Under the pieces are notes generated by a model. That model was not told the DNA's origin and ran no database searches. It saw nothing but the letters and a program-made list of their open reading frames with translations. This document shows positions 15,881-57,102 of a stretch of DNA of 64,000 nucleotides, one piece after another; the first letter of the stretch is position 1; every line of letters starts with the position of its first letter. Source of the DNA: Sandaracinaceae bacterium (GTDB lineage: Bacteria; Myxococcota_A; Polyangia; Polyangiales; Sandaracinaceae); NCBI GenBank assembly GCA_040218145.1, contig JAVJQK010000012.1:1-64000 (forward strand). Direction: 5' to 3'. The position numbers were made by a program, and so were the translations under genes.

Positions 15881-16465
15881 CTACATGCCTCGGCCAGTGA
15901 TTTGAATGGCGCTGAGCAGCTGTTGCTGGAGCGACGGATCGTGACTCATCGACCCCGCGAACGCGAGCGTCGTGGCCCGTGCCGCGTGGCGTCGATCCCC
16001 CCGCGCCGTCATGCACGTGGGAGCTAGGTCCACGACCGCGCCTGCGCCACGCGCGCCGAGGTGCTCGACGAGCGCCTCCGCGATGTCGCGTCCGAGGTCT
16101 TCTTGCAGGCGCAGCCGGCGGGAGAGCGCGTCGACGAGGCGACCGAGCGCCCCGAACCCGACCACGCGCTCTCCCGGGAAGTAGCCCACGTGCACGACCC
16201 CCGACGCCGGCATGAGGTGATGCGGACACATCGTCGCCGCCGCGAGGTCGGTCACGACCACCAGGCCGGGGGCGTCGGAGGCCGTCGCGTCCGAGAGGAT
16301 GTGCGCGGGGTCGGCGGCGTAGCCGGAGAGCAGGTCGTCGGCCCACGCCTCGGCCACGCGACGCCCGGTCCCTTCGAGCTCCGGATCGTCCCCGACCGGC
16401 GCCCCGACGGCGCGCAAGAACGCTTCGATCGCGCGCGCGGCGCCCTCGAGATCGCGCTCGGCCAC
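15881..16465 (-). CDS. folE: GTP cyclohydrolase I
   Basis: A 194-residue GTP cyclohydrolase I (type IA), which converts GTP to 7,8-dihydroneopterin triphosphate at the start of tetrahydrofolate and tetrahydropterin synthesis. The zinc and catalytic motifs are MCPHHLMP (Cys and two His) and PTCMTARGDR, which supplies the second Cys and the conserved Arg-Gly. The usual CEHH is CPHH here, a tolerated variant. The protein is slightly shorter than the enterobacterial enzyme because the N-terminal extension is short. It is followed 2 bp later by the Lon-N-domain protein and preceded, about 10 bp away on the same strand, by the MerR regulator, so all three may form one operon driven by the MerR promoter. 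Confidence 0.9.
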   Translation of the reverse strand: MAERDLEGAARAIEAFLRAVGAPVGDDPELEGTGRRVAEAWADDLLSGYAADPAHILSDATASDAPGLVVVTDLAAATMCPHHLMPASGVVHVGYFPGERVVGFGALGRLVDALSRRLRLQEDLGRDIAEALVEHLGARGAGAVVDLAPTCMTARGDRRHAARATTLAFAGSMSHDPSLQQQLLSAIQITGRGM

Positions 16466-16474
16466 GTGGTGTGC

Positions 16475-26396: not shown

Positions 26397-26436
26397 GCCA
26401 TTCCAGCCCGCGCTATTCCAGCCCGCGCTATTCCAG
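26397..26436. repeat. 15-bp tandem repeat at the luxC stop codon
   Basis: Two full copies and one partial copy of GC(C/T)ATTCCAGCCCGC. The first in-frame stop of the minus-strand luxC-like gene (TAG at 26428-26430) lies in the partial copy; the next full copy carries the same in-frame TAG, while the outermost copy reads TGG. The repeat therefore duplicates the stop region of the gene. Confidence 0.75.
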
Positions 26437-27663
26437 TGCAGTGAGCCGGAACAGCCCCTCCCACGGAGGGCGACCGTCCGCGAGCGAGAGGAGCGCCGGG
26501 CGCTGCATCTGGCCCGCCGCGGTGACGCGCGGCGCGAGCCCCGCCGGCAGCGCCGCCGCGACCTCGCGACGCCGGGCCGCGTCCCCCGCCACGCCGAGCG
26601 TCTTGAGGTGGACCCCGAGGGGCGCGAGGGCCGCGCCGAGGGCGGCCGGACCGTCGACGTCGAGCACCATGACGTTGCGCCAGCCGGGGCTGACCCTGAG
26701 CGCCGCCTCGCCCTCGTAGCTGACGCTCCAGCCGTCGCCCTCGATCAGCTCGCCCCGCGCCGCCGCGACGCCGCGCCACTGGATCTGCGCCGCGCCGACC
26801 TCGCGCGGGAGCGGGCCGCGCGGCAGGTCGGCGGCGAGCCGGTCGAGCTGCGCGGCGAGCATCGAGGCCCAGTCCGCGCCGTCGACGCCGCCGCCCCGCT
26901 CCACCCAGATCACGTGCGGCGACATGCAGCCCCGCTGGTCGTAGGCGGCGACGTCGAGCGCGAAGGCCGTGGCCGCCGCGCGCGCCGCGTCTTCGTTCTC
27001 GAGCGCGTCTCGCGAGACGAACCCTGCGCCGAGCCCGTGCCCGTGCGCGACGAGCGAGGCGGTCGGAGCGAGGCGCCGCCGCACCGCGGTCAGGGTCGCG
27101 TCGCTCCCGTAGACCGAGACCACGTCCGCGCGCGACATCAACGCGCTCTCGAGGGTCGGCGTCCCTCCCGGGAAGGTCACGACCTCGCACGCCTCGGCCA
27201 GCTCCACGTCCACCTGGGCGAGCGCGGCGACGAAGAGCGAGGGCAGGACGTCATCCTTGCTGGAGGCCTTGATGATGAGGGGCGAGCCCGCGAGGAGCGC
27301 CATCGAGCAGGGCTGCACGCAGGCGGTGAAGACGTTTCCCGCGAGCACGAGCGCGCTGAACCGCGCGGGCGCGCGGGCGGCGCCGTCGGGGGGCGCCATG
27401 CGCCGGGCGGCCTCGAGGTGCGCCTGTCGATCGGCCCGCTCGAAGGTCGCCTGGAGCGCCCACGCGATCATCGGCAGGCTCAGCCCCGTCGTCTCCGGTA
27501 GCCGCTCCCGCGCCGCGCGGCCCGGCGCGCGCTCCGGGTCGGCGATGAGCGCCCACGCCGCCGCGACGCGCTCCGCGACCTGCTCACGTGGGCGCGCGCG
27601 CAGGGCCGGGCCGGCCGCGATCGCCGCGTCCACGCGGGCGCGCAGCTCCGCCTCACCGATCAT
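26428..27663 (-). CDS. luxC: LuxC-like acyl-CoA/acyl-protein reductase
   Basis: A 411-residue member of the LuxC family within the aldehyde dehydrogenase superfamily, which reduces an acyl thioester to a fatty aldehyde with NADPH. Visible features: a nucleotide-binding region (LVLAGNVFTACVQPCSMALLAGSPLIIKAS, about 106-135), GSDATL near 187, and the catalytic nucleophile Cys246 in YDQRGCMSPH. It is the last gene of an overlapping operon, overlapping the luxE-like gene by 11 bp. Bioluminescence genes luxA/luxB are absent, so the aldehyde must feed another reaction; the aminotransferase at the head of the operon is the obvious candidate. Function as a fatty aldehyde-forming reductase is well supported by motifs; the chain length is unknown. 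Confidence 0.88.
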   Translation of the reverse strand: MIGEAELRARVDAAIAAGPALRARPREQVAERVAAAWALIADPERAPGRAARERLPETTGLSLPMIAWALQATFERADRQAHLEAARRMAPPDGAARAPARFSALVLAGNVFTACVQPCSMALLAGSPLIIKASSKDDVLPSLFVAALAQVDVELAEACEVVTFPGGTPTLESALMSRADVVSVYGSDATLTAVRRRLAPTASLVAHGHGLGAGFVSRDALENEDAARAAATAFALDVAAYDQRGCMSPHVIWVERGGGVDGADWASMLAAQLDRLAADLPRGPLPREVGAAQIQWRGVAAARGELIEGDGWSVSYEGEAALRVSPGWRNVMVLDVDGPAALGAALAPLGVHLKTLGVAGDAARRREVAAALPAGLAPRVTAAGQMQRPALLSLADGRPPWEGLFRLTALE

Positions 27664-28744
27664 CGAGGGCCTCTTCCACCGCCAGCGAGCACCCGCGCGG
27701 CGTCGCCCCGGGAGCGCGCCCGTGCAACTCGAGAGAGGCGCCCTGGGCGTGCACCGTGGCGACGTCGCTCGTCTGGACGCCGCACGACGTGTCCAGGTTG
27801 GCCAGGTCGTCGATGCGGAGCAGCCCCGGCGCGCCGTCGGGGAGCGGCGCGAGCGTCTCCGCGTCGACCGCGGTCACGCGCAGCCAGCCCGGGACGGCGT
27901 AGCGACGGGGCGCCTCCGGATCGCGCGAGCCCGCCTCCCGGAGAGCCGCCTCGTACATCTGCGAGCTGAGCTCCGTCATGCCGTACTCCGAGACCACCCT
28001 CGCCTCGGCCACGCCGTAGCGCGCCGCGATCTGGGCGCGGAGCACGTCGGGCGCGACCTCGCGAGAGCGGCCCTTGAAGCCGCCGGTCTGCATCACGAAG
28101 CTCCCCGCCGGGAGCGCGAAGCGCGCGTCGAGCGCGTCGTCGGCGTGCACGAACGCAAACGAGGTTCCGAGGATCGCGGTGGGCGCGTCGGTCTCGAGCG
28201 CCTCGCTCAGGGCGCGCGCGTCGAGGCGGCCCTCCGAGAACACCCAGCGCGCGCCGGTCTCGGCCGAGGGGTCGGCAAACCAGTCCTCGAACCGGCCCAG
28301 CATGTAGCTGAGCGAGGAGTCGGGCGCCTCGTCGGGGTGCGGGGCGAGCATCACGAGGCGCATCGGCCCGTCGAAGAACAGCGCGCGGCGCGCCTCGACC
28401 TCCGCGGCGCGGTCGTAGAGCGAGAGCGTGGAGAGGCAGCTCGCCCCCCGCTGACCGCTGGTGGTGCCGGACGTGCGAAAGACGCGCGCGTCCTCGGCCG
28501 GAGGGTGCGCGGCCACCCGCACGTAACGGAAGACGTCGGTCGGCACGGCGGGGAAGCCGAGCGGGTCGTCGCGCCGCGCCGCGAGCCTGGCCACCGGGGC
28601 GACGTGCTCGCGCTGCCAGGCGGCGACCTTCGAGAGCAGCGCGTCGCGCGCCGCGTCGTCTCGCGCTCCGTCCGCCAGGCGGTCGATCAGCGCCTCGATC
28701 TCCAGCGCGAGCGCCTCTCTCGTGAGCGCAGCACCCCGCCTCAT
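27653..28744 (-). CDS. luxE: LuxE-like acyl-protein synthetase
   Basis: A 363-residue acyl-adenylating enzyme of the LuxE family, which activates a carboxylic acid with ATP and transfers it to a Cys of itself or of LuxC. The adenylate-forming signature is FRTSGTTSGQRG at 89-100, followed by the ADP/AMP-binding core (SEYGMTELSSQMYE, TSFAFVH). The start ATG ends at 28744 and overlaps the aminotransferase stop as ATGA, so the genes are translationally coupled. It also overlaps the luxC-like gene. With LuxC it would form an acid-to-aldehyde reductase pair like that of bioluminescent bacteria, but without luciferase. Confidence 0.88.
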   Translation of the reverse strand: MRRGAALTREALALEIEALIDRLADGARDDAARDALLSKVAAWQREHVAPVARLAARRDDPLGFPAVPTDVFRYVRVAAHPPAEDARVFRTSGTTSGQRGASCLSTLSLYDRAAEVEARRALFFDGPMRLVMLAPHPDEAPDSSLSYMLGRFEDWFADPSAETGARWVFSEGRLDARALSEALETDAPTAILGTSFAFVHADDALDARFALPAGSFVMQTGGFKGRSREVAPDVLRAQIAARYGVAEARVVSEYGMTELSSQMYEAALREAGSRDPEAPRRYAVPGWLRVTAVDAETLAPLPDGAPGLLRIDDLANLDTSCGVQTSDVATVHAQGASLELHGRAPGATPRGCSLAVEEALDDR

Positions 28745-30033
28745 GAGCGCAGCACCTGGGCGAGCGTGTCCGTGAACCGCGACAGCAGCGCCTCGTCGAC
28801 GTTCAGGGGCGGCGTCAGCTGGAGCACCTCGGCGCGCGGCCCGGCCGGCAGGGTGATCCATCCGCGGGCGAGCAGCTCCCCGACCAGGCGGAGCGTGCGC
28901 GCGCCGTCGTGCAGCTCCACGCCGACCATGAGCCCGCGCCCGCGCACCTCTCGCACCGCCTCGCAGGGGGCCAGAGCTTCGGTGAGCGCGTCCACCCACC
29001 GCGCGCCGACCTCGGCCGCGCGTCGCGCGAGGCCCTCGCGCTCGATCACCTCGAGGCTCGCGAGGGCGGCCGCGCAGGCGAGCGGGTTCCCCGCGAAGGT
29101 GGCGGTGTGGATCGCCGCGCCGCTCGGATCCCCCCACGCCCGCATGACCTCGAGCGTGCCGATGCAGGCGCTGACGGGGAGCGTGCCGCCCATCGCCTTG
29201 CCCGCGCAGATCAGGTCGGGGGTCGCGCCCTCCGGGGTGTGGGCCCAGCGATGGCCGGTGCGCCCGAACCCGGTGAAGATCTCGTCGAAGATCAGCAGCG
29301 CGCCGCGCGCGTCGCAGGCCTCGCGGAGCGCGCGCAGGAAGCCCTCGGGCGGGAAGCGCAGCCCCCCGCGCCCGAGCGCCGGCTCGACGATCACCGCGCC
29401 GATGTCCTCGGTGAAGAGCGCGTCGACGTCGGGGCTGCCCCACGGCGCGAAGCGCACGTGCGGGTTGAGCTGCGCCGCGAAGGGGTCGCGGAAGCTCGGC
29501 GCGAACCCGCAGAGCGCGAGCGGCCCGTACATCAGCCCGTGGTAGCCGCCCTCGAACGCGAGCACGCCGGGCTTGCCGGTGTGCAAGACGGCGGTCTTCA
29601 TCGCGGCCGCGAGCGCGTCGGCGCCGTTGAGCCCGAGGATCACGCGCGCGTCCTCGAAGGGGGCGAGCGCGGCGAGGCGCTCCAGCAGGCGCACCTTCGG
29701 CTCGGAGGGGTGCACGTCGCCGAGCGCGTGCAGGAGCGTGCCCGCCTGCTTCTGCACCGCCTCGACGATCTCGGGGTGGCCGTGCCCGGTCGCCGCCACG
29801 CTGAAGCCCGCGATGAGGTCGACGTAGACGTTCCCGTCCACGTCGCGCACGTTCGCGCCCTTCGCCTCGGCCCAGACGATGGGGTCGTTCGGGGCGCCCG
29901 CCCGCTCGGCCCGGCGCGCCCGGCGCTCGGTCAGCGAGGGGCACTCGGTGCGCGCGAGCACCTCGATCCACCGGGCGGAGCCGGCCCCCGGCACGGGACC
30001 GCGGATCTCGGGCGGGCGCTGACCGAGCTGCAT
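28741..30033 (-). CDS. Class III PLP-dependent aminotransferase
   Basis: A 430-residue fold-type I aminotransferase of class III (the GABA/ornithine/diaminobutyrate group). The PLP-binding Asp-Glu pair is at 250-251 (FDEIFTGFGRTGHRW) and the Schiff-base Lys is Lys279 (ICAGKAMGG). Class III members commonly convert an aldehyde to an amine using an amino acid donor, which suits its position as the first gene of an operon with LuxE- and LuxC-like proteins. The start at 30033 precedes a leader (MQLGQRPPEIRGPV) that is not a signal peptide. Alternative donors or acceptors (omega-amino acids) cannot be excluded from sequence alone. Confidence 0.9.
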   Translation of the reverse strand: MQLGQRPPEIRGPVPGAGSARWIEVLARTECPSLTERRARRAERAGAPNDPIVWAEAKGANVRDVDGNVYVDLIAGFSVAATGHGHPEIVEAVQKQAGTLLHALGDVHPSEPKVRLLERLAALAPFEDARVILGLNGADALAAAMKTAVLHTGKPGVLAFEGGYHGLMYGPLALCGFAPSFRDPFAAQLNPHVRFAPWGSPDVDALFTEDIGAVIVEPALGRGGLRFPPEGFLRALREACDARGALLIFDEIFTGFGRTGHRWAHTPEGATPDLICAGKAMGGTLPVSACIGTLEVMRAWGDPSGAAIHTATFAGNPLACAAALASLEVIEREGLARRAAEVGARWVDALTEALAPCEAVREVRGRGLMVGVELHDGARTLRLVGELLARGWITLPAGPRAEVLQLTPPLNVDEALLSRFTDTLAQVLRS

Positions 30034-34072: not shown

Positions 34073-35428
34073 TCAGCCGCGCTTCTTCAGCATGCGCTTG
34101 AAGTACATGCGGTCCATGCCGCTCGCCGCGGCCGCGCGAGAGAAGTTGCCCTCGTGCCGCGCGAGCTGGCGCGTGAGGTAGGTGCGCTCGAAGGCCTCTA
34201 CGACCTCCTTCTTCAGGTCCGAGAAGGGCCGGTCGAGATCGACGACGGGCTCCGGCGCGTCGGACGCCGCGGGTCGCCTCTCGAGCCCCGGGGCCGTCTG
34301 CGGCTCGAGCGCGGCCGGCTCGTCCTCGGTGCTCAGCGCGAGGGTGCGCTGGATGAGGTTCTTCAGCTCGCGCACGTTGCCGGGCCACGGGTGCGCCATC
34401 AGGCGCGCGCGGTTCTCCTCCGAGATCGACGCGAGGATCTTCGCGGCCCGCTTCACGTCATCCGGCAAGGCGCGGCGCACGAAGTGCTCGACGAGGCGCG
34501 GCACGTCCTCGGGGCGCTCGCGGAGCGGCGGCACGCGCACGCGGACCACCGCGAGGCGGTAGTAGAGGTCCTCCCGGAAGGCGCCGCGGTTCACCTCCGC
34601 CGCCAGATCGCGGTTCGTCGCCGCCACCACCCGGAAGTCGACCCGCCGCGTCCTGGCGCCGCCCACCCGACGCACCTCGCGCTTCTCGAGCGCGCGCAGG
34701 AGCTTGGGCTGGAGGTCGAGCGGCAGCTCACCCAGCTCGTCCAGGAAGAGCGTCCCGCCGTCCGCCTCCTCCATGCGACCGACGCGCTGGCTCGTGGCGC
34801 CGGTGAACGCGCCCTTCTCATGGCCGAAGAGCTCGGACTCCATCAGCTGGGTGGGGATCGCCGCGCAGTCGAAGACCACCAGCGGCCCGCCGGCGCGCCC
34901 GCTCGCGGCGTGCACCGCCTCCGCGACGAGCTCCTTGCCCGTCCCGCTCTCGCCCTCGACCAGGAGGGTCGCGTCGGTGGGCGCCGCTTTGGCGAGGAGC
35001 GCGAACAGCTCGCGCATCGCCACGCTCGCGCCGACCAGCGGGCCGAAGCGGTCATCGGGCGACGCGGGCACGTCGACCTCGTCGTCCTCGGGCGTGAAGC
35101 GCAGGGTCGTGTCGCCCACCGTGATCTCGCTGCCCGGCCGCAGGTAGAGATCGTTCGCGCGGTAGCCGTCCACGACGGTGCCGTTGGTGCTGCCGAGGTC
35201 CCTCAGCCGGTATCCGTGCGCGTCGACGGAGATCTCGAAGTGGAGCCGGCTCACGCGCGGATCGGCGAGCACCAGATCCGCGCCCGGGCGGCCGCCGACC
35301 CGATAGCTGGTCGCCGTAACCCGCTCCTGGAACGCGTCACCGCGCAGCACGTAGGGCCGCATCGTCCGGCCCGACACGCCGCCCCGCACGACCGAGCGCG
35401 TCGCGAGGGTGTGGATCACGTCACTCAT
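34073..35428 (-). CDS. FHA-domain sigma-54-dependent activator
   Basis: A 451-residue enhancer-binding protein. The N-terminus carries an FHA domain (about 45-110, with GSTNGTVVDG and the SRLHFEI core) that recognises phosphothreonine, replacing the usual receiver. The AAA+ domain (about 125-360) has Walker A GESGTGKE and the GAFTGA loop, and the C-terminus is a Fis-type helix-turn-helix (GNFSRAAAASGMDRMYFKRM). In myxobacteria such EBPs are known to pair with Ser/Thr kinases: phosphorylation or FHA binding controls activity. It overlaps the kinase gene by 8 bp on the same strand, so the two form one operon and most likely one signalling pathway. All catalytic motifs are intact. Confidence 0.93.
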   Translation of the reverse strand: MSDVIHTLATRSVVRGGVSGRTMRPYVLRGDAFQERVTATSYRVGGRPGADLVLADPRVSRLHFEISVDAHGYRLRDLGSTNGTVVDGYRANDLYLRPGSEITVGDTTLRFTPEDDEVDVPASPDDRFGPLVGASVAMRELFALLAKAAPTDATLLVEGESGTGKELVAEAVHAASGRAGGPLVVFDCAAIPTQLMESELFGHEKGAFTGATSQRVGRMEEADGGTLFLDELGELPLDLQPKLLRALEKREVRRVGGARTRRVDFRVVAATNRDLAAEVNRGAFREDLYYRLAVVRVRVPPLRERPEDVPRLVEHFVRRALPDDVKRAAKILASISEENRARLMAHPWPGNVRELKNLIQRTLALSTEDEPAALEPQTAPGLERRPAASDAPEPVVDLDRPFSDLKKEVVEAFERTYLTRQLARHEGNFSRAAAASGMDRMYFKRMLKKRG

Positions 35429-36527
35429 CGTCGAGCCCCGAGCGCGTGGTGTACACGCTGTGCGCCCCGCCGTCGTCGACCCGCCGCAGCTCGCGCCCGA
35501 GCAGGGCGTCGAAGCCGCCCGCGGCGGCGGGGGTGGTCACCACGGGCACCCCGGGGGGCGAGCTCGAGGCGGGCCGATCGGAGTGGCGCGGGTCGGCGAG
35601 CGCCTCCTCCACATGCGAGGCGAGCTCGGACGAAGACAGGTACAGCCGCTCCGCGTGGGCGAAGCGCTCGAGCTCTTCGCGCAGCTGCGCGCCGGTGCCG
35701 TGTCGGATGTCGACGTCAGGCGCCAGCGCCCGCTTGAGGACGCGGACGAGCTCCGGCGGGACGCGGGACTCGAGCCCCAGGAGCGCCTGGCCAGGGCCCG
35801 CGAGGATCTTCGGGATCAGCGCCGCGCCGTCGCCTTCGAACAGGCGACGCCCGGCGATCATCTCGTAGAGCACGGCGCCGAGCGCGTAGAGGTCCGCCCG
35901 CCGATCCACCGCGCCGCCCTTCACCTGCTCGGGCGGCATGTACGGGATCTTGCCCTTGAGCGTGCCGATGACGGAGCCCACGTCCCGAAGGGTGCTCTTG
36001 GCCACCCCGAAGTCGGCCACCTTCACCTCGCCCTCGCGCGAGAGCAGCAGGTTCCCCGGGGAGACGTCGCGGTGCACGATCGCGAGCGGCGCTCCGTCCG
36101 CGCCGCGTCGTCGGTGCGCGTAGTCGAGCCCCTTGAGCGCCTCGATGGCGACGAGCAACGACAGGCCGAGCGGCAGCGGGCCGCGGCTCAGCAGCGCGCT
36201 CAGGTCCAGCCCGTCGACGTACTCCATGGCCAGGAACCAGCGCGCGTCGATCTGGCCGACGTCGAACGCCTGCACCACGTTCGCGTGGCTCAGGGACATC
36301 GCGACGCGGACCTCCTCGACGAAGAGCTGCGCGAAGCCGGGCTGCCCGGCGAGCTCCGGGCGGACGAGCTTGAGCGCGACGGGGCGCAGCACGCCGGGCA
36401 TCGTCTCCACGCTCGCGAGGAAGACCTCCCCCATCCCCCCGGCCGCGATGCGCGCCTGGATGCGGTAGCGCCCCACGCTCTTCGGGTCGACCTCCACGCC
36501 GAAGGAGGATAACAGGCAGCGCAGCAT
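35421..36527 (-). CDS. Eukaryotic-like Ser/Thr protein kinase
   Basis: A 368-residue kinase (start taken at the ATG ending at 36527; GTG at 36497 or Met codons upstream are possible). The Gly loop AAGGMGEVF (about 29-37), ATP-Lys53 in PVALKLV, the catalytic HRD (152-154, Asp154) in HRDVSPGN and the DFG (172-174) in VADFGVAK are intact, so it should be active. The C-terminal tail has no transmembrane helix or sensor domain, unlike many membrane kinases, so input must come from a partner. It overlaps the FHA-activator gene and shares the promoter region with the divergent ceramidase, whose start overlaps its own by two bases. Confidence 0.92.
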   Translation of the reverse strand: MLRCLLSSFGVEVDPKSVGRYRIQARIAAGGMGEVFLASVETMPGVLRPVALKLVRPELAGQPGFAQLFVEEVRVAMSLSHANVVQAFDVGQIDARWFLAMEYVDGLDLSALLSRGPLPLGLSLLVAIEALKGLDYAHRRRGADGAPLAIVHRDVSPGNLLLSREGEVKVADFGVAKSTLRDVGSVIGTLKGKIPYMPPEQVKGGAVDRRADLYALGAVLYEMIAGRRLFEGDGAALIPKILAGPGQALLGLESRVPPELVRVLKRALAPDVDIRHGTGAQLREELERFAHAERLYLSSSELASHVEEALADPRHSDRPASSSPPGVPVVTTPAAAGGFDALLGRELRRVDDGGAHSVYTTRSGLDDE

Positions 36528-38055
36528 GGAAGCGGGATTCGGACGCGCGGACATCACGGTGTGGGAGCGCCGCATGCCGATGCTCGGGTGGGGGCGAGAG
36601 GACAACGTCTCCCTCGGCGTGGAGGCGCCGCTCTACGCGCGGGCGCTCGCGGTGCGGAGCGCGGGCCGGACGGCGGTCTACGTGTGCGCCGACCTCTGCT
36701 TCATCGCGGCCGGCCTGCGGGTGGCGGTAGAAGAGGCCCTGCAGGAGACGCTGGGCGATCGGGTCCACCCCGCCGATCTCCTGCTCACCGCCACGCACAC
36801 CCACAGCGGACCGGCCGGCTACAGCCACGCGTTCTTCTACGACCTGAGTGGCCCCGGTTTCTCGCGGCGCGTCTTCGACGGCCTCGTCCGGGGCATCGTG
36901 CGCGCGATCGAAGACGCAGTCGCCGCGCTCGCTCCGGCGCGGCTGCGCCTGGCCACGGGGTTCGTGCCCGGGGCCGAGCCCGTGGCCTTCAACCGCTCGC
37001 CCGGGGCGCACCGCCGGAACCGCGACGCCCACGCGGAGGACGTCGACCGGGAGATGCTCGTGCTCGACACGGGGCGCGGCGTCATCAGCTTCTTCGCCCT
37101 GCACGCGACCTCGGTGCACGGCGACGGCGCGCGCCTCCACCCGGACCACAAGGGCCTGGCCTGCGAGGCCTACGAGGCGGCGCGCGGCGTGCCCGCCATC
37201 TTCGCCCAGGGCGCGGCGGGCGATGTCACCCCGAACTACCGCTGGTCCGAGGCGCGCGGCGTCACGGTGGGCCGCCACGACGACGACCTCGACAGCGCCG
37301 CCTACTTGGCCGCGGTCCAGGCGCGCACCGCGGGTGTGATCGCGATGACGGAGGGGCTTCGGCTCGACGGCCCAGTCGGCGGCGCGCTCCGCCGCGTCGA
37401 TCTCGAGCGCTGCCCCACCACGCGCGGCCCGACGACCATCGGGCGGCTCGGGGTGGCGATGGCCCAGGGCACGGCCGAAGGCCCCGGCCCGCTCGCGCCC
37501 TTCGCGCCGCTGGTCCGGCGCTTCCCGGGCAAGGCCACGCTCCTCGAGATCGGCCCCGATCGCCCGCGCCGCCTCTTCGGCCTGCTCGATCCCGCGCGTC
37601 TGCACCTCGATCACCCGGCCTTCGCCCACACGCGCCGGGTGAGCGCGGCGGGCGGCCTCGACGGACAGCCCTGGATCCCGACGATCCTGCCCGTCCAGCT
37701 CTGGCGGGTCGGCGCGTTCTGCATCGCCGCGCTGCCCAACGAGCCGACCACCATGGTGGGCCGCCGCCTCCGCGCGCGCCTCGAGGCCGCGCTCGCGCCG
37801 CACGGCGTCCGGCGGGTGCACGTCCAGGGCTACGCCAACGCCTACGCCGGGTACCTCACCACGCCCGAGGAGTACGGCGCGCAGCGCTACGAGGGCGCCT
37901 ACACCCTCTTCGGCCCGCGCAGCTACGAAGCCTTCGCCGAGTCTCTGGAGGCGCTCGTCCCCGATCTGCTCGACGAGGCGCCGCGCGAGAGCGGCCCCGC
38001 GCTGCAGCGCTGTTCGCCGACGCAGCTGAAGGCGAGAGCCTGGCGAGGTCCCTGA
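36526..38055 (+). CDS. Neutral/alkaline-type ceramidase homologue, Ser-to-Thr at the nucleophile site
   Basis: A 509-residue protein of the neutral (non-lysosomal) ceramidase family, which hydrolyses ceramide to sphingosine and fatty acid. Zinc and core motifs are present: TATHTHSGP (His91, His93), the SFFALHATSVHGD region with His193, and the characteristic NAYAGYLTTPEEY near the end. The catalytic hexapeptide known as GDVSPN in human and related enzymes reads GDVTPN here (Thr235 replaces Ser). It has no signal peptide, unlike the secreted bacterial enzymes, and is shorter than them (they also have a C-terminal Ig-like domain). Thr could still act as nucleophile, or the enzyme may have a changed amide substrate. 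Start ATG 36526 overlaps the divergent kinase start. Confidence 0.85.
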   Translation: MEAGFGRADITVWERRMPMLGWGREDNVSLGVEAPLYARALAVRSAGRTAVYVCADLCFIAAGLRVAVEEALQETLGDRVHPADLLLTATHTHSGPAGYSHAFFYDLSGPGFSRRVFDGLVRGIVRAIEDAVAALAPARLRLATGFVPGAEPVAFNRSPGAHRRNRDAHAEDVDREMLVLDTGRGVISFFALHATSVHGDGARLHPDHKGLACEAYEAARGVPAIFAQGAAGDVTPNYRWSEARGVTVGRHDDDLDSAAYLAAVQARTAGVIAMTEGLRLDGPVGGALRRVDLERCPTTRGPTTIGRLGVAMAQGTAEGPGPLAPFAPLVRRFPGKATLLEIGPDRPRRLFGLLDPARLHLDHPAFAHTRRVSAAGGLDGQPWIPTILPVQLWRVGAFCIAALPNEPTTMVGRRLRARLEAALAPHGVRRVHVQGYANAYAGYLTTPEEYGAQRYEGAYTLFGPRSYEAFAESLEALVPDLLDEAPRESGPALQRCSPTQLKARAWRGP

Positions 38056-56565: not shown

Positions 56566-57102
56566 ATGTATCGGATCACCAAGGGGATCCACGCGCACTT
56601 CGCGCACCACGTCCGGGGCCACCGCGGCGCCTGCATCTCGCTGCACGGTCACACGTGGAAGCTCGAGGTGACGGTCGCGGCGGAGACGCTCGACGACGAG
56701 AGCTTCGTCGTGGACTTCTCGGTGATGAAGCGCGAGGTCCTCCAGCCCGCGCACCTGCTGCTCGACCATTCGCTCGCGATCGGCGAGGCGACCTGGGCCG
56801 AGACCAAGGACAGCCTGGCGACGCTGGGCAACATCCTCGTCGACTCGCGGCAGCACACCATGGGCAGCCGGGGCGAGCTCCAGCCACACCTCCAGGGCGA
56901 GCTCGCGGGCGCCCGCAACGAGCTGCCCGGGGACATCAAGATCGCCGTCTTCCCCTTCGCGCCCACCAGCGAGACCCTCGCCCGCTGGCTCTACGAGCTC
57001 GCGGAGGAGCGCCTCGCCGACGACCGCGTCTCGATCGTCAACGCGCGCATCTACGAGGCGCTCCACCCCGTGGAGACCTGGGCCGAGTACGCACCGCGCT
57101 GA
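56566..57102 (+). CDS. 6-pyruvoyl-tetrahydropterin synthase/QueD-family protein
   Basis: A 178-residue PTPS/QueD-family protein. The zinc ligands are in HAHFAHHVRGH and HGHTW (the Cys of GACISLHGH is the catalytic one), and LLDHSLAIG is the mid-family motif. It is about 50 residues longer than E. coli QueD, with an insertion near residues 85-125 (SRQHTMGSRGELQPHLQGEL). Family members convert dihydroneopterin triphosphate to pyruvoyl-tetrahydropterin or to carboxy-tetrahydropterin (queuosine route). It could use FolE's product, although folE is 40 kb away. Which product it makes cannot be read from the motifs. Confidence 0.85.
   Translation: MYRITKGIHAHFAHHVRGHRGACISLHGHTWKLEVTVAAETLDDESFVVDFSVMKREVLQPAHLLLDHSLAIGEATWAETKDSLATLGNILVDSRQHTMGSRGELQPHLQGELAGARNELPGDIKIAVFPFAPTSETLARWLYELAEERLADDRVSIVNARIYEALHPVETWAEYAPR

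Follow-up and report, generated by a model that had tools for sequence, protein, structure and literature searches.

An aminotransferase–LuxE–LuxC operon conserved across Myxococcota and its possible part in preQ1 synthesis

What is made by an operon that joins relatives of LuxE and LuxC, the acid-reducing proteins of luminous bacteria, to an aminotransferase? The question is raised by three genes in a 64,000-nucleotide stretch (the window) from a Sandaracinaceae bacterium of the order Polyangiales (assembly GCA_040218145.1, contig JAVJQK010000012.1, positions 1 to 64,000). From sequence comparison and predicted folds, the operon very probably encodes a pathway in which an acid is adenylated, passed to an enzyme as a thioester, reduced to an aldehyde and converted to an amine. 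As to the compound itself, we see about an even chance that the operon makes preQ1 (7-aminomethyl-7-deazaguanine), the precursor of queuosine, from 7-carboxy-7-deazaguanine (CDG), replacing QueC and QueF.

The operon and its enzymes

The three genes (the triple) are the following.

28741..30033, minus strand: class III (pyridoxal phosphate, PLP) aminotransferase (AT), first gene of the operon; 430 aa, PF00202 (Aminotran_3), E=2.1e-93
27653..28744, minus strand: LuxE-like adenylating enzyme of the ANL/PaaK fold; 363 aa, PF04443, E=2.5e-9
26428..27663, minus strand: LuxC-like acyl-thioester reductase; 411 aa, PF05893, E=1.8e-44

Together they run from 30033 to 26428 with overlapping gene ends. 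A preliminary description of the window had named the same three gene types at 26428-30033, and Pfam places all of them above its gathering scores (LuxE 37 bits versus 24.9; LuxC 152.7 bits). It also reported, correctly, the ATGA common to the AT stop and the LuxE start; the 11 bp that it placed between the LuxE and LuxC genes proved to be an 11-bp overlap of stop and start. A VOC gene whose stop lies 9 bp ahead of the AT start had been offered as a possible member. This gene is confined to the one species and therefore lies outside the conserved operon, so we rejected it. LuxE and a real LuxC are each encoded only once in the genome.

Searching for the triple in other genomes, a check proposed in the preliminary description, we examined 94 LuxE loci, which are the better-scoring LuxE matches across Myxococcota and not a random sample. 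AT lies directly upstream in 79 of the 94, in the same gene order and in 22 families, and a recognised LuxC gene directly follows LuxE in 68 of those 79. Because gene set and order recur in this way, the triple is not a chance arrangement. The LuxE profile matches 297 of 377 Myxococcota genomes. We counted AT, QueC and Tgt in a common set of 289 Polyangia genomes (155 from Polyangiales, 134 from sister orders). AT was present in 146 of the 155 and in none of the 134, at one copy per genome with a single exception. The triple also occurs in other Myxococcota classes. Within Polyangiales it usually stands tail-to-tail with a metallophosphoesterase gene; in other classes (L086 and relatives in eight other families) we noted, naming genes by eye, a CysH-like gene divergent to the triple, in some loci also a divergent FolK-like gene, and Rrf2/Suf-like genes behind it. 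A LuxC scan of genome contigs returned matches from the same species only (metagenome-assembled genome MED-G138). The papers we searched on LuxE/LuxC with aminotransferases do not describe this operon; they deal with islands for flagellin glycosylation (PMC7874193, PMC4875605) and with tambjamine (PMC9594044).

Conservation extends to the catalytic residues. The PLP lysine of AT, K279, is present in 80/80 relatives, and the catalytic Cys246 of LuxC in 69/69 where aligned; LuxE has the P-loop SGTTSGQ at residues 92-98. These three features had all been picked out in the preliminary description. Cys352 of LuxE, kept in 80/80 relatives, aligns with Cys364 of Photobacterium phosphoreum LuxE (7xc6_E), the residue established as the acyl acceptor.

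The LuxC model (pLDDT 93.4) has LuxC of the lux fatty-acid reductase complex as its best PDB match (7xc6_A; E=1.6e-18, TM 0.81, ~17% identity). The LuxE model (pLDDT 83.5) adopts an ANL/PaaK fold, with a PaaK match at Z 23.6; its fold search gave PaaK-type ligases, and 7xc6_E was not among the matches listed. LuxE scores 31.6 bits against the long-chain-fatty-acid--protein ligase model NF052244 (cut-off 550), and LuxC 35 bits against the long-chain-fatty-acyl-CoA reductase model NF052251 (cut-off 750). Judged by these scores, far under the equivalog cut-offs, both are remote relatives only of the luminous proteins. What they appear to share with the lux complex is a C-terminal Cys acyl carrier (C352/C364) in an adenylating LuxE, and a LuxC that reduces via a conserved Cys. 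Unlike the lux complex, the operon has no LuxD and no luciferase, and its third gene encodes an aminotransferase. EhpF of phenazine biosynthesis, another short ANL enzyme, resembles the window LuxE in fold (Z 18.8), and the product of the adjoining ehpG carries the annotation aldehyde dehydrogenase family protein (PMC11278526); EhpF/EhpG differ in serving an aromatic antibiotic pathway with no aminotransferase step.

No luciferase gene adjoins the triple, and the genome's three PF00296 matches are all on other contigs; luxA/luxB linked to luxC/luxE, as in a bioluminescence lux operon, are thus not present. One of the three (L167, contig C97) is a MupA/Atu3671-type luciferase-like monooxygenase domain inside an open frame of nonribosomal peptide synthetase type.

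AT itself is atypical. Aligned to 4-aminobutyrate transaminases (GABA-AT), it carries Leu167, Arg222 and Gln405 at the positions of Arg141, Glu211 and Arg398 (E. coli GABA-AT numbering). Arg222 is found in 80/80 relatives and Leu167 in 77/79; position 405 is S, Q, T, A or V, never Arg. No other class III aminotransferase of the genome has this pattern; ArgD, BioA, HemL and EctB are among those compared. AT scores under every curated NCBIfam cut-off (ArgD/GABA-AT/BioA/LysJ/PigE), the best being 289.7 versus 457 (PRK03244), with 279 versus 410 for the argD model. By these comparisons it is without the substrate-carboxylate residues of GABA-AT/ArgD and belongs to no curated subfamily. ArgD, BioA, HemL, EctB and PanD are encoded elsewhere in the genome, and we therefore rejected a substitute role for the operon in arginine, biotin, heme, ectoine or beta-alanine synthesis.

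With the triple deeply conserved, and its three catalytic residues as well, the acid-to-amine pathway is a well-founded inference. This part of the preliminary description, acid to aldehyde to amine with an aminotransferase in place of luciferase, is supported.

Queuosine genes and the proposed route to preQ1

Which acid, then, and which amine? In bacteria, CDG is converted to its aminomethyl counterpart, preQ1, by QueC, which forms the nitrile, and QueF, which reduces it (PMC6884629, PMC11130926). QueC (E<=1e-15) was detected in only 4 of the 155 Polyangiales genomes versus 124 of the 134 from sister orders, a distribution complementary to that of AT, and Tgt is present in 274 of all 289. In the window's own genome (100% complete) QueC was not found, the best hit being a partial PF06508 match of 26 bits. 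The genome does have a QueA-Tgt operon (L217; both exceed their cut-offs, queA at 441 bits and tgt at 455), and QueA adjoins Tgt in eight further relatives. Its Tgt (L217 6945-8120) keeps Cys158 and Val233, preQ1-type by published substrate determinants (PMC3660597), and hence a source of preQ1 is required.

The four Polyangiales QueC hits fall into two kinds. In genomes G220 and G241 the hit is a divergent PP-loop protein, at 90-106 bits versus the usual >200. The hits of G214 and G250 lie within DpdA/DpdB/DpdC DNA-modification islands. These islands (L228 in G214, L229 in G250) are of the Dpd 7-deazaguanine type and hold, with DpdA/B/C, QueC, QueE and a QueD-like gene. QueE is the enzyme that makes CDG. 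In G040, a genome without QueC, it is encoded (TIGR04349, E=4e-79) on the strand of the triple and 3 kb upstream, which suggests that CDG is produced there.

Since the order does without the usual QueC while the operon could make the same net change, we propose a role in queuosine synthesis. The LuxE-like protein would adenylate the CDG carboxylate with ATP and take the acyl group onto Cys352. The acyl group would then move to Cys246 of the LuxC-like protein and be reduced with NAD(P)H to 7-formyl-7-deazaguanine, which AT would convert to preQ1 with an amino acid, Glu or Ala, as amino donor. Tgt would insert preQ1 into tRNA, and QueA would elaborate it. This sequence, and above all CDG as the substrate, is what we infer; the missing substrate-carboxylate residues of AT and the separate ArgD, BioA, HemL, EctB and PanD also speak for it. 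If the proposal is right, the net change from CDG to preQ1 equals that of the QueC-QueF steps; QueC and QueF pass through the nitrile preQ0, whereas the enzymes of the proposed route are unrelated to them and would form an aldehyde that is then transaminated. That this is a second preQ1 route throughout one Myxococcota order, and probably in other classes too, we rate at just short of even.

Two further genes of the window bear on the proposal.

15884..16474, minus strand: FolE-like GTP cyclohydrolase I, PF01227, E=6e-43; ~10 kb from the triple
56566..57102, plus strand: QueD-like 6-carboxytetrahydropterin synthase/PTPS family, PF01242, E=5.7e-22; ~27 kb from the triple

FolE opens both the 7-deazaguanine and the folate pathway; its association with the triple is a looser one. 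It also lies within ~10 kb of the triple at L048, L050, L051 and in G040 (L243); four families, the window's among them, show this proximity (f1, f3, f4, f7). When QueE, QueD and Tgt were sought beside other triples, QueE appeared in G040 only, and FolE at five loci. The distant QueD-like gene shows only that the genome has such a gene.

Several points weigh against a role in preQ1 synthesis. The complementary distribution could reflect one or two evolutionary events, in which case phylogeny confounds the correlation. The QueC counts cover Polyangia only, while the triple extends to other classes, and in some families no AT adjoins LuxE-LuxC. G214 and G250 have QueC as well as the triple, although the Dpd islands account for QueC there. 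QueE was not located in the window's own genome, and the QueD-like gene falls under the TIGR03367 cut-off (E=3e-19, 69 bits versus 89). FolE also serves folate, and the FolE and QueD-like evidence alone is weak. The conserved synteny of the triple loci includes genes unconnected with queuosine. Rfam matched neither a preQ1 riboswitch nor any other RNA at the triples examined, which are those of the window and of 18 further Myxococcota loci. Finally, preQ0 or preQ1 may be imported.

These points give shape to a different explanation, which we consider unlikely but worth weighing: that the triple acts on another small acid, with the complementarity to QueC a coincidence of clade history and preQ0/preQ1 either imported (with QueF) or made by an unrelated enzyme. 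The phylogenetic confounding and the occurrence of the triple in classes beyond the QueC counts would both fit. It accounts less well for the presence of QueE next to the triple in a genome that lacks QueC, for the exact fit of the net chemistry to CDG and preQ1, or for the fact that the two real QueC of Polyangiales are both Dpd-linked.

Tgt sequences showed a further pattern. In the triple-bearing order Tgt mostly reads GGFSVGE (L217, L180, L198, L206, L219-L223, L225 and L226), compared with GGLSVGE in most sister-order Tgt. This Leu231 to Phe change adjoins the preQ1 site; L224 keeps Leu, and Phe is found in the sister-order Tgt of L187, L189 and L193. A second, divergent Tgt paralogue (GGLAVGD), with no QueA beside it, is encoded at L218 7237-8388 (contig C16 of the window's genome) and at L227 (G247).

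TPP-riboswitch relatives and the remaining alternatives

Beyond Myxococcota, the nearest LuxE-LuxC pairs that we found (LuxE 29-36%, LuxC 26-33% identity) are plasmid operons with a short-chain dehydrogenase/reductase (SDR). In Pantoea (two records), Azospirillum, Pseudomonas and Levilactobacillus, a thiamine pyrophosphate (TPP) riboswitch precedes the operon; none was found in a Priestia stretch. The riboswitches lie directly upstream of LuxE-LuxC(-SDR) at these positions.

L094 7689-7818: TPP riboswitch
L095 7653-7785: TPP riboswitch
L172 2947-3054: TPP riboswitch
L173 5686-5813: TPP riboswitch
L174 5685-5812: TPP riboswitch

Some of these operons carry NMT1/THI5-like ABC transporters or a xanthine/uracil-type (Xan_ur) permease. 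They resemble the triple in placing LuxE before LuxC, and differ in being thiamine-regulated and in having the SDR, suited to an alcohol product, where the window has an aminotransferase. Their probable reaction is the reduction of a carboxylated thiamine pyrimidine to hydroxymethylpyrimidine (HMP), apparently an undescribed salvage of thiamine-pyrimidine acid by proteins annotated as fatty acid--CoA ligase and acyl-CoA reductase. In a tree whose root is uncertain, their LuxEs branch among the AT-linked LuxEs, far from Photobacterium LuxE. Since the closest relatives are found in this context, an aminopyrimidine acid, chemically like CDG, is suggested as substrate; the clue is that this branch handles small heterocyclic acids of amino-pyrimidine type.

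Could the product instead be a long-chain (fatty) amine or amino-lipid, as the preliminary description suggested? LuxE would then activate a fatty acid, LuxC reduce it to the fatty aldehyde and AT aminate it. The luminous LuxE/LuxC families do handle tetradecanoyl groups, the substrate-carboxylate-binding residues are gone from AT, and TamA/TamH (an ANL enzyme, a reductase and a class III aminotransferase) yields a C12 amine (PMC9594044). The tambjamine enzymes share with the triple ATP-dependent activation, thioester reduction and a class III aminotransferase. Yet TamH is an AAR-type reductase fused to its aminotransferase and TamA works with an acyl carrier protein (ACP), whereas the window has separate LuxE/LuxC-type proteins, and no ACP or AAR-type reductase in the operon. 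The similarity to luminous LuxE/LuxC is remote, the closest relatives are thiamine-regulated, and the triple loci have no recurring genes for fatty acids, ACP or lipids. A single-copy, near-universal triple looks like housekeeping, and a fatty product would leave the QueC complementarity unexplained. We regard such a product as improbable, and this part of the preliminary description is not supported.

Slightly less probable again is thiamine salvage by the triple itself, from 4-amino-2-methylpyrimidine-5-carboxylate (HMP acid) to a 5-aminomethyl compound that TenA could convert to HMP: the TPP riboswitches and the NMT1/THI5-like or nucleobase transporters of the homologous LuxE-LuxC-SDR operons favour it, but Rfam detects no TPP riboswitch in the window or at 18 further LuxE loci of Myxococcota, the genome has ThiC under its only one, and near-universal occurrence in single copy would be surprising for a salvage route. 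Control of the triple by a TPP or preQ1 riboswitch is rejected on the same Rfam results.

Other genes of the window and significance

Elsewhere in the window, positions 36526-38055 (plus strand) encode a neutral/alkaline ceramidase (PF04734, E=1e-77), which suggests sphingolipid metabolism. At 34073-36605 (minus strand), an FHA-domain sigma-54 activator adjoins a Ser/Thr protein kinase with an overlap of a few bases, likely a kinase-regulator pair.

If the triple does make preQ1, this would explain queuosine synthesis without QueC in a large bacterial order and assign a role to an unnamed operon that is among the most conserved in Myxococcota. It would also mean that carboxylate reductases of the LuxE/LuxC type are not confined to fatty acids and work on heterocyclic acids in the metabolism of cofactors and tRNA bases (preQ1, thiamine pyrimidine). 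Should the substrate prove to be another acid, the papers searched still do not describe an acid-to-amine operon that spans a phylum and has a conserved but atypical aminotransferase site, and its enzymes could serve as carboxylate-to-amine biocatalysts.

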